From a virus: DNA of 60,331 nucleotides. The notes under the pieces are model-generated. The model made no database searches. It saw only the letters and a list, made by a program, of their open reading frames with translations, and was not told the DNA's origin. The first letter of the stretch is position 1. Each line of letters opens with the position of its first letter. This document shows positions 4,377 through 38,920 of this stretch, in pieces. The position numbers were made by a program, and so were the translations under genes. The DNA is taken from the IMG/VR virus record IMGVR_UViG_3300025120_000050, positions 1 through 60,331 of that record; one strand, 5' to 3'.

Positions 4377-4960
4377 CAATCATTTATTAGTGATCCAACT
4401 GTAGATCCTGCTGCAGATCCAATATTTTGACCCAATAAAGTTGCCCACCCTGCTGCCAACCATCCAATATAAGGTATATTCATAACTGCTGGTACTGCTA
4501 CTCCAGCTGCTATAGCACTACCTGCCATTGCACCTTGTGATCGTGCGCCAGCGTCCGCCACTAAACACTCTTCTTCTCGGGCAGTCAACTTTCCCTCGCC
4601 GTCTCCTGCAACACCTCCTAAATTTCTAGTACCGTCCATAGTGAATTGGTCTTTACGCCACTCACGTCTTCTTTCATCACCACCTCCAAAAAATCCTTTC
4701 TTAGTTTTATCTAAAGACAGTGATCTTTGTGATTCAAGAATAGCAGGGTCATTTGCTCTATATTCTATACTATACCCATCTTTACCTGCTTCAACTTTGT
4801 ATGAAGAGTAAGGACCACGTGGGATATTAATTACAGGAGATTCATAAACAGATTGCTTTGATTCATGTTGAATAAGATGCCCTAAAACTCCAATATGAGC
4901 AATACCTATAATGGATCCCAAAGTTATTAGTACTATCTTTGCAGGTTTTACAGATTTCAT
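4373..4960 (-). CDS. Membrane-associated protein with Gly/Ala-rich C-terminus, unknown function
   Basis: This is a 195-aa protein. Residues about 8-28 form a hydrophobic helix (IVLITLGSIIGIAHIGVLGHL). The middle is charged, with GGGDERRREWRKDQF. The last 50 residues are Gly/Ala-rich and hydrophobic (AGSAIAAGVAVPAV, then AAGSTVGSL), the glycine-zipper style of membrane-inserting segments. It lies between structural genes and has its own CTAAATA box. It could be a membrane-perturbing protein (lysis or injection) or a minor virion component. I recognise the protein type from cyanophages but no function. Confidence 0.75.
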   Translation of the reverse strand: MKSVKPAKIVLITLGSIIGIAHIGVLGHLIQHESKQSVYESPVINIPRGPYSSYKVEAGKDGYSIEYRANDPAILESQRSLSLDKTKKGFFGGGDERRREWRKDQFTMDGTRNLGGVAGDGEGKLTAREEECLVADAGARSQGAMAGSAIAAGVAVPAVMNIPYIGWLAAGWATLLGQNIGSAAGSTVGSLINDC

Positions 4961-5656: not shown

Positions 5657-7608
5657 CCATCCAGTGCAACAGTGAGACCAAGAGTCATACCTGGCAGTGA
5701 CTGCCAAGAAGTACCATTATAGAATTCAATTTTTTTACTTGTTGTATTATATATCATAGCTCCTTCAAGAAAAGTTCCAGCACTAGTTGCATTATCCCTA
5801 GTAGTAGTTGTATACATTGCAGGATAAAAAGCAGTTGATGCTTTTAGTGTGGAGGCAGTGACAATCCCTGCATAATCAGCATTACCAGAAGATAGTATTG
5901 TTACTCCAATTCCAGTACCATCATCAAAATCATATCCAACATTAATCTCTGTTCTAGCAGTTACAATTCCAATGGAATCAACACTGATTTTATTTTCTGT
6001 TCTAAGAGTTCCACCAATAGTTACATTGCCACTAAATGTTGCAGAAGTTGCAGTTATAAAACCAACAGACATTCCAGTGCTTGAAGTATTTCCTTCAGTA
6101 AGGACTTCATCTAATGTTGTAGAACCTGATAATGCAGTACTTGCAATACCAACCCACTTTGATGTGGTTGAATTGTAAATAAGAAGTTGATTATCTGTTC
6201 CATCAAAAGAAACATCATCTAGATCTCTTATAAATCCTGCTCCACCACCACCCATAGTGGAAAGTTGAGTTGTTATTCTATTAATAAAAAGTCTGTAGTG
6301 CGCAGACAAATCATCTAAAGTAGCAAATTTTTTATCTAATGGAGTTAATGGATCAGTTTGATTTCCAGCAGTTTCTTTTTCATTTGGAGGTTCATTAAGA
6401 AGATATTGTTCAACTAATTGTTGTTGTTCTTCTTTTATTCTATCTTTTAAATTATTTAATTCTAAATTTAAATTTTTTAATTCTTCTCTTACACTTTTAA
6501 CTTCACTTTTAAAATCACTTCTTAAATCATCAATGTCTTTCTCATAGTATTTTACTTGAGGAAGATTGTTTACCTCTTCTTTTAATTTAGTAAAAACTTT
6601 TAGTAATGTTTCATCAGTATTAACACTCTCACGATTTATTCGTTTAATCTCTTTTTCAAGTGATTGTTTTAATTTATTTTGTTCACTTAATATTGCCTTT
6701 TTTAATTTTCTATCATCATCTTTAAATTCTCTATGATGCTCCCAAACTTTTACTGAAGTTTCCTTTAATTCATTAAATATATTATTCTTTACCTCTTGAT
6801 GATTTTCAATTATATTCTTTACATCAACCTTTAATTCAAAATCTTTTGTTTCAATAGTCTCATTTAACTCTGAAACTCTAAAGTCAATCTTCTCTTTAAT
6901 TAAATCAAGGTGTCCTTGAACCTTATTAAAGTCATCATCAATGATACTAAAAGTCTTTCCTATCCAAGAAAAGTCAGGAACCTCTTCTACTTTCTGAACC
7001 CAATCAGGAAAAGTGGGAATTGACTCCTTTACATCTTGAATTTTTGTTTTTAGTGCTTCAAGATCACTTTCATAGTACTTTACTTCTGGTAAAGATGAAA
7101 TTTCTTCCTTAATTAAATCAATTTTTTTGTAAATATATTCAATATCTCCATCATATTGTTTAATTTCAGGTATTTCAGGTATTTTTGACTCTATTTCAGT
7201 TAATTTTACTTCAAATTCTTCATTTTTTGCATCTAAATTATAAATTTTATCACTTTTAAGATCAAACCTTGATAAATTATCTTGAATTTCAATAATTTTT
7301 TCACTTAAATCACCTAATTCATCATCATAATACTTTATTTCAGGTATTTCTGGAATATCTTTTCTTACATCATTAACAAGACGTACTAATTCCTGCCATT
7401 CTGGTGCTTTTACTACATCTATAACCTCTAAAAATGATTCACCATTAGCATCTTCTATGGTTTCAGAATTATTTTCTTCTGGTTGTACAACAAATTCTTC
7501 TATAGAAGGAAGATTTTCTTCCTTAAAACTATCTAAAGAAGGTAAATCTTCTTGATTTTGTAAAAAATCATTGACTGACGGTAAATTTTCACCTTCTTTT
7601 TGTGACAT
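5653..7608 (-). CDS. Long coiled-coil virion protein with fibre-like C-terminal tip
   Basis: This 651-aa protein has three parts. Residues 9-41 hold three copies of LPS(V/L/I)xxF. Residues 80-420 are charged coiled coil with four PEIKYYDDELxxL-like units near 85-101, 143-159, 172-186 and 354-368. Residues 440-651 are a Gly/Thr-rich beta domain with GIVTARTEI and TFSGNVTIGGTL repeats typical of cyanophage fibres. The protein ends LGLTVALDG, much like the cut gene at the right edge of the window. Between gp16 and gp17 it probably makes a trimeric whisker or fibre, perhaps a fibritin-like collar protein (inference). Confidence 0.85.
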   Translation of the reverse strand: MSQKEGENLPSVNDFLQNQEDLPSLDSFKEENLPSIEEFVVQPEENNSETIEDANGESFLEVIDVVKAPEWQELVRLVNDVRKDIPEIPEIKYYDDELGDLSEKIIEIQDNLSRFDLKSDKIYNLDAKNEEFEVKLTEIESKIPEIPEIKQYDGDIEYIYKKIDLIKEEISSLPEVKYYESDLEALKTKIQDVKESIPTFPDWVQKVEEVPDFSWIGKTFSIIDDDFNKVQGHLDLIKEKIDFRVSELNETIETKDFELKVDVKNIIENHQEVKNNIFNELKETSVKVWEHHREFKDDDRKLKKAILSEQNKLKQSLEKEIKRINRESVNTDETLLKVFTKLKEEVNNLPQVKYYEKDIDDLRSDFKSEVKSVREELKNLNLELNNLKDRIKEEQQQLVEQYLLNEPPNEKETAGNQTDPLTPLDKKFATLDDLSAHYRLFINRITTQLSTMGGGGAGFIRDLDDVSFDGTDNQLLIYNSTTSKWVGIASTALSGSTTLDEVLTEGNTSSTGMSVGFITATSATFSGNVTIGGTLRTENKISVDSIGIVTARTEINVGYDFDDGTGIGVTILSSGNADYAGIVTASTLKASTAFYPAMYTTTTRDNATSAGTFLEGAMIYNTTSKKIEFYNGTSWQSLPGMTLGLTVALDG

Positions 7609-38142: not shown

Positions 38143-38420
38143 TAAATGGATTTTCTTTTTGAATTATATATCATCCTCATATTGACTTAGAGGGTATATA
38201 CTTTTGTAGGTTAGGGTTCCTACCCTTTTTTCGTAGGGGGGGTCGCTACGCCCTTTGGGCCACATACACATACCCTCAGAAACACTGTCTGATTCACAAT
38301 ACTGTATTCTATCACATGTACTGCTAAGTGTCAACCAGGAGGCACACAGTGGGCATCAGATAGGGGTTGCAGTTACTCATGATGTGTGTTAGAATAAAAT
38401 GAAAAAAGTACTTATAAAAT
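38143..38420. other. Non-coding stretch with GC-rich hairpins
   Basis: No gene-like frame is visible. Between 38206 and 38261 is a GC-rich island in otherwise AT-rich DNA. It has three small stems: GTAGG/CCTAC at 38206-38223, CGTAG/CTACG at 38232-38250, and GCCC/GGGC at 38251-38261. This could be a structured leader for the 37936-38142 gene on the minus strand or a small RNA. The remaining bases show nothing I can name. Confidence 0.5.
38206..38231 (+). terminator. Terminator-like hairpin on the plus strand
   Basis: GTAGG, an 8-nt loop, CCTAC, CC and a run of six T follow each other on the plus strand. The stem is short. No plus-strand gene is known in the window, so this may be incidental or may end an antisense or non-coding transcript. 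Confidence 0.3.
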
Positions 38421-38920
38421 CTATGTGGGACAAATAGATTTCTATGTGGGACACATGGACTATGGAATCTGTTCTAAACCAGTGATAACCTTCTGCTGTA
38501 TTTGTCCCACATAGGTTATTCCATGTGTCCCACATAACCTCTCATATTCTTTGAGCATTTGGGACACATGAGCAACACAGGAGGATGGAACTCTGATTCT
38601 CTCAGTATGTCCCAGGTTTGGCAATTTCTTGGAGAATGGCATAAGTCATGTGGGACACATAGGATTTGCATGATTTTCATTTGTCCCACATAGATTAGCA
38701 CAGGTTTCGTAGGTTGTCAACTATGTGTCCCATATAAAATCTATGTGTCCCATATGAATTTGGGTGTTGACATGTGAGATAAAGTGTGATATACTGCTGC
38801 CTTAGATCACTAAAAGATCTAAGGTTTAAACAGGTTTATAACAATCTATTTGGGACAAATAAAACACTAATATACATTTAAAAAGACATTTATTAATGAA
38901 TTTCTATTTGTCCCACATAG
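38421..38920. repeat. Array of about twelve 17-bp imperfect palindromes (CTATKTG GGA CAMATAG)
   Basis: Copies start at 38421, 38442, 38498, 38521, 38555, 38603 (degenerate), 38646, 38677, 38721, 38741, 38846 and 38904. Each has 7-bp arms (CTATGTG or CTATTTG) around a 3-bp core, GGA in one orientation and TCC in the other. Cores at 38421, 38442, 38555, 38646 and 38846 read GGA; the others read TCC. Copies 1-2, 3-4 and 9-10 are 20-23 bp apart, about two helical turns. Copies 1 and 3, and 2 and 4, are complementary over about 16 bp and could pair. The stretch has no credible gene. I saw no copy elsewhere in the window. Possible roles are an operator array, iteron-type origin or partition site. 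Confidence 0.9.

Follow-up and report, generated by a model that had tools for sequence, protein, structure and literature searches.

Small autorepressors of the Arc/MetJ/CopG ribbon-helix-helix (RHH) type, of which TrcR of Anabaena is an example (PMC10272220), are among the closest described parallels to the cyanophage locus analyzed here. Shared features are a small protein, sites that lie over the -10 and +1 of its own promoter, and the existence of several target sites. The present locus differs in that its protein matches neither a Pfam RHH model nor, significantly, any known fold, in the presence of up to 12 sites with four of them inside the gene, and in a site core that switches among subfamilies of the protein. 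A second parallel is offered by the stoperators of Cluster A mycobacteriophages, which are likewise many short sites that diverge along with their repressor into distinct specificities (PMC6550527, PMC9283540). Stoperators serve an unrelated repressor in temperate phages, and up to about 30 of them are scattered genome-wide, mostly in one orientation (PMC6550527, PMC9283540), whereas the marine sites described below cluster around a gene, occur in both orientations and are carried on contigs of T4-like phages. Replication origins built from iterons or DnaA boxes (PMC4674748) also combine repeated sites with a neighboring promoter and an A+T-rich stretch, and in other cyanophages DnaA boxes do stand at the corresponding position, but further sites of the present array are laid out as operators at the gene's own promoter. 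Our literature search brought up no description of an RHH protein, a palindromic array or an origin element in cyanophages, nor any report of a self-regulating operator array in T4-like members of the group.

The window, by which we mean the whole stretch analyzed, comprises 60,331 nucleotides (IMG/VR record IMGVR_UViG_3300025120_000050, positions 1 to 60,331). A first-pass annotation had described about twelve palindromes with an asymmetric core, in both orientations, and the count bears this out: 11 strict copies of ATNTG(GGA/TCC)CANAT begin at 38423, 38444, 38500, 38523, 38557, 38648, 38679, 38723, 38743, 38848 and 38906, and a decayed twelfth copy (TGTCCCA at 38608) accompanies them, all within 38421-38920. 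This confinement to 500 bp, with both orientations represented, is not a dispersal of the stoperator type. The arms are near-palindromic and the GGA/TCC core is asymmetric. With the window modeled as a first-order Markov chain, chance would supply 0.0007 strict sites per 500 bp and 0.088 per 60 kb contig. The two-mismatch search of the 60 kb contig that the annotation had proposed gave 24 strand-hits, versus 3 for a reversed-pattern control, and every match with at most one mismatch lay in the array, in agreement with its remark that nothing similar occurs elsewhere in the window. Two further contigs, assigned to the same species at 99.8% and 99.5% identity, carry the array with all sites kept, and none of the differences listed among near-identical contigs between 37.9 and 39.2 kb falls within a palindrome. 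Array blastn against phages returned chance matches only, the array is absent from the syntenic gaps of cultured relatives, and Rfam gave nothing at gathering threshold in the window, with just sub-threshold chance microRNA matches to the palindromes. The mutual pairing reported for copies 1 and 3 and copies 2 and 4 was recovered (19-20 nt at 95%). Pairs of copies 20, 21 and 23 bp apart do exist, as had been stated, but the window by itself gives no significant rule of two helical turns (Rayleigh p = 0.36); a helical phase of the site spacing is detectable when relatives are pooled (p ~3e-4, the loci being related).

The array had been placed in a non-coding stretch, and this part of the description has to be corrected. 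A conserved gene of 60 amino acids (MPFSKKLPNLGHTERIRVPSSCVAHVSQMLKEYERLCGTHGITYVGQIQQKVITGLEQIP), encoding a putative RHH-like regulator, occupies 38460-38642 on the minus strand (ATG 38642-38640, stop TAG 38462-38460); nothing else from the phrog_1352 gene (stop 38934) to the phrog_2626 gene (start 38142) is coding. Homologous ORFs were found in L216, L219, L230, L237, L241 and L242, and independent contigs keep the protein, with 48-57% of its amino acids identical. Substitutions fall mainly in the third codon position and dN/dS is mostly 0.05-0.37, a pattern that marks the gene as being under purifying selection. Coding of the same stretch in close relatives had been named as an observation that would speak against a binding-site array; it is found for the part taken up by the 60-aa gene and is absent from the remainder, and the presence of this gene strengthens the operator reading.

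Four of the twelve sites fall inside the gene: copies 3 (38498-38514, minus strand), 4 (38521-38537, minus) and 5 (38555-38571, plus), along with the decayed copy CAGTATGTCCCAGGTTT (38603-38619, minus), which is represented by a better site in relatives (+25, ATATGGGACACAC). Copy 4 lies at position +107 in all relatives of the GGA clade, which also conserve the sites at +25 and +64 within the gene; the +25 site codes for HMGHT, where the putative DNA-contacting strand begins. Beyond the stop codon lie copies 1 (CTATGTGGGACAAATAG, 38421-38437) and 2 (CTATGTGGGACACATGG, 38442-38458), both on the plus strand.

An AF2 model of the 60-aa protein built on 37 sequences (mean pLDDT 90) has, as a monomer, an extended segment at residues 12-19 and helices at 23-40 and 42-57, which is the order of segments expected of an RHH monomer. 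RHH_1 (PF01402) and Arc (PF03869) had no match in the window, the family found nothing above cut-off in Pfam and no usable match in PHROGs or NCBIfam, and Foldseek/VIA fold searches with two models gave no significant match and no RHH match. Because fold and profile searches did not confirm it, we infer the RHH-like fold from the predicted segments. Weak sequence hints point to TCP15 and SopB (E 0.13-0.2). The family was not found in GTDB genomes, and tblastn of its members from the window, L216, L205 and L249 against INPHARED gave no match.

The arrangement of sites in front of the gene is most easily read in the relatives. A promoter of the form TTGAC[CT]-17/18-TATA[AC]T precedes the gene in L216, L219, L237, L241, L242, L248, L250, L252, L254, L255 and L256, and operators overlap it at each of these loci. 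One site fills the spacer and the next lies past the -10 in the GGG and TAA subfamilies as well as in five GGA relatives; judged by position, this is the classical layout of a repressor and its operators. The promoter scanner did not find an own promoter in L238. The window carries a variant of this layout. Its putative own promoter, recognized by eye and not flagged by promoter scanners, is TTGACA (38720-38715)-17-TAATCT (38697-38692), spanning 38692-38720 on the minus strand and having a weak -10. The site at -93 of the gene (38721-38737, minus strand) abuts the putative -35, and the site at -49 (38677-38693, minus) lies immediately past the putative -10 and covers +1. Additional copies are found at -18 (38646-38662, plus strand) and at -113 (38741-38757, minus), the latter being 9 bp upstream of a promoter on the plus strand.

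Among the readings offered in the first-pass annotation for a phage DNA-binding protein with a dimer footprint was an operator cluster, and these results support that view strongly and supply the probable binder, which is encoded inside the array. That the array serves this small DNA-binding protein as its operator cluster we judge to be probable, and the most likely effect of the regulator on its own gene is autorepression. What computation shows is the array itself, the conservation of the gene, its association with the motif at many loci, the promoter geometry of the relatives and the joint switching of core and subfamily (see below); binding by the 60-aa protein, its dimer fold, repression and cooperativity are inferences. 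An RHH-like dimer would read one ATKTG half-site in each arm plus the GGA core of the operator duplex CTATGTGGGACACATAG, and would repress its own promoter by occupying the sites beside the -35 and over the transcription start. More bound copies would be spread across the gene body and the promoter element on the opposite strand (38767-38795), so that the plus-strand transcript of that element would meet bound sites about 40 and about 100 nt past its start. The whole would constitute a compact negative-feedback module of about 500 bp, exchanged among cyanophages as a gene with its cognate sites. Against this reading stand the negative RHH profile and fold searches, the weak -10 of the window's own promoter, and, as set out below, the freshwater relatives with single sites or none, the same strand residues paired with different sites, and the small number of independent core changes.

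The linkage of motif and gene was examined by scanning IMG/VR with the exact 15-mer TATGTGGGACACATA, protein information not being used. The scan returned 37 loci, and in 21 of these a family start codon lies at most 150 bp from a site, mostly at 12-15 bp; the relatives fetched in this way include proteins just 26-30% identical to that of the window. Of 159 loci obtained by way of two neighboring cyanophage genes, just two had the family gene, which shows that the gene is rare and that the linkage is no by-product of cyanophage sampling. A second palindrome query, ATGTGGGACAAATAG, gave mostly single chance sites without a family gene. When IMG/VR was searched with the family itself, 49 loci were obtained, and on contigs of 23-115 kb the sites with the cognate core cluster at the regulator gene. 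Freshwater relatives usually have one site, in constant orientation, beside their own start codon; it stands immediately 5' of that codon, where no promoter is obvious. Each of two freshwater genomes examined has, in addition, two dispersed sites that precede other small genes, and several freshwater family members have no recognisable site.

The site core changes with the protein. Three marine subfamilies keep the palindrome arms but have different putative strands and different 3-bp cores: subfamily GHTER has a GGA core at 38 of 38 exact-arm sites, subfamily GKT[VI]KT has GGG at 28 of 40 (with GAG at 6 others, which occupy one fixed position), and subfamily GKTELM has TAA at 15 of 16. In the GGG and TAA groups the sites lie at matching places relative to the gene, near -53 and -30 and from +185 on, which argues that many sites changed their core together. 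Repeats of other sequence stand in front of the gene in L257 (ATGTGGAAACRCAT) and in L259 and L260 (TATACGTTAACCAAT). On a protein tree of 37 members the five site types require four changes, the fewest possible, and each core state occupies one or two clades, indicating few independent events. The strand residues do not suffice as a recognition code, since GETKH is paired with different sites in L205 and L257.

Comparisons of individual loci are consistent with exchange. Both flanks of L242 and L257 are 83-95% identical, with a clearly different gene and sites between them. L252 combines a GGG-type gene and GGG proximal sites with distal sites of the TAA type, and its downstream flank is common to the TAA-type locus L255. 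Both pairs look like swaps of the gene plus its operators, and the gene and proximal sites seem to move between cyanophages as a unit. A recombination hot spot had been among the functions suggested for the array; nothing that we found supports this as its primary function, though gene-plus-site modules do seem to be exchanged.

Past the regulator gene's promoter, on the strand opposite the genes, lies a conserved cyanophage element (38767-38824, plus strand) made up of a promoter-like site of sigma70 type, TTGACA-17-TATACT (38767-38795), a conserved transcript start GCTGCCTTAGATCAC and a hairpin CCTTAGATC-ACTAAAA-GATCTAAGG. An A+T-rich stretch at 38863-38903 (plus strand) follows it and is similar in relatives (TATACATTTAAAAAGACATTTATTAATG). 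The pattern TTGACA-17-TAnAnT-GC..CTwAGATCAC was found at 32 distinct loci, including those of S-SM2, Bellamy and SynMITS9220M01, on the strand opposite the genes; L010:4846, L011:4576 and L009:4779 are among the loci. We regard this element as a candidate origin or non-coding RNA of marine T4-like cyanophages. The cyanobacterial-type DnaA box is TTTTCCACA (PMC4674748), and boxes of the form TTWTCCACA occur at 3.6 per kb within 320 nt of the element's -35, versus 0.09 per kb overall in all loci collected, a 39-fold difference. Half of the loci have such boxes at the element, with an A+T-rich stretch coming after. In the window and in the GGG and TAA clades, a first operator lies 78-81 nt from the element's -35 (111 nt in L238) and another at 131-164 nt, whichever core is present and whichever way the regulator gene points; the window copies concerned are those at 38846-38862 (plus strand, about 80 nt) and 38904-38920 (minus strand, about 138 nt). 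DnaA boxes are found at the element in none of the seven loci with operators there and in 16 of the 25 without (Fisher p 0.007, the loci being related). This suggests that the regulator also acts on the opposite-strand element, where it may block the path of the transcript or take part in a candidate origin.

These observations bear on another of the annotation's suggestions, an iteron-like origin, in which the protein would be an initiator or licensing factor that replaces host DnaA, and the array, the plus-strand promoter, its short transcript and the A+T-rich stretch would be the parts of a phage origin. The density of DnaA boxes at the element in other cyanophages, the operators that take their place at fixed distances from the -35, and the A+T-rich stretch that follows all fit such a scheme. 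The GC-skew analysis proposed for detecting an origin, in contrast, gave a monotonic profile with no origin sign; the gene-proximal sites of relatives have plain operator geometry; and L243 and L244, of the GGA clade, keep DnaA boxes at the element with their array located elsewhere. Furthermore, DnaA is not known to take part in T4-type replication. On balance we consider the origin unlikely. A broader scheme, in which one self-limiting gene-and-operator module replaced, in several cyanophage lineages, the host DnaA boxes at the candidate origin element and controls both its own expression and the firing of an origin or its primer transcript, its specificities (GGA, GGG, TAA and others) being exchanged as cassettes, strikes us as rather doubtful.

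Control at the level of RNA, with the palindromes forming hairpins that are bound or sensed in a 5' leader, would suit the freshwater relatives, where a site in constant orientation stands just 5' of the start codon at about three places per genome. The marine arrays fit it poorly, for they run in both orientations, their arms are often mismatched (ATGTG/CAAAT, ATTTG/CACAT) such that many stems would be broken, and sites also occupy promoter spacers. Arm position 3 varies independently between the two arms of the palindrome, as would be expected of protein half-sites and not of RNA stems, and we hold RNA-level control to be very improbable. Partition cassettes also place a small autoregulated protein beside an array of its sites, and the locus might on that ground be a centromere for a small RHH protein of the ParG/ParR/omega type; no partition NTPase was noticed among the neighboring genes in the loci read, however, the carriers are contigs of T4-like cyanophages, and freshwater relatives have dispersed single sites, all of which make this reading scarcely credible. 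Equally hard to credit is a selfish or incidental repeat family without a binding protein. It would account for copies within coding sequence and for their variable number, but not for the linkage of motif and gene across distant phages or for a core that switches with the protein subfamily.

Because the three natural subfamilies differ in their 3-bp cores but have closely similar surroundings, they form a ready set for studying how a 60-aa protein reads DNA, and also how the specificity of a regulator can shift jointly with that of a dozen sites. The element and its DnaA boxes make the replication start of T4-like cyanophages testable in cultured phages such as S-SM2.

Several other repeats were seen in these and other cyanophage genomes. 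Upstream of the phrog_2626 gene, both in the window (38200-38250) and in S-B43 (L018:6150-6215), TTTGTAGGTTAGG stands ahead of a G-rich tract (GGGGGGG) and hairpins that resemble terminators. A dispersed repeat with the same heptamer, TAAAGTGTCCCAGTAGT with near copies, occurs four times in the cyanophage locus L102 (at 2229, 3159, 3955 and 4938), about 1 kb apart, and is also listed at L206:67. In phage S-8S55 there is an exact 300-nt direct repeat (L016:4163-4462 and 4506-4805, spacing 343). At the place in S-B43 equivalent to that of the array, the repeats CATATAGGCCCCCTTATATAAG and TTATATAAGGGGGCTTATATG lie around small genes (L018:6603-6645 and 6872-6906), and these are possibly another array, that of a different regulator.
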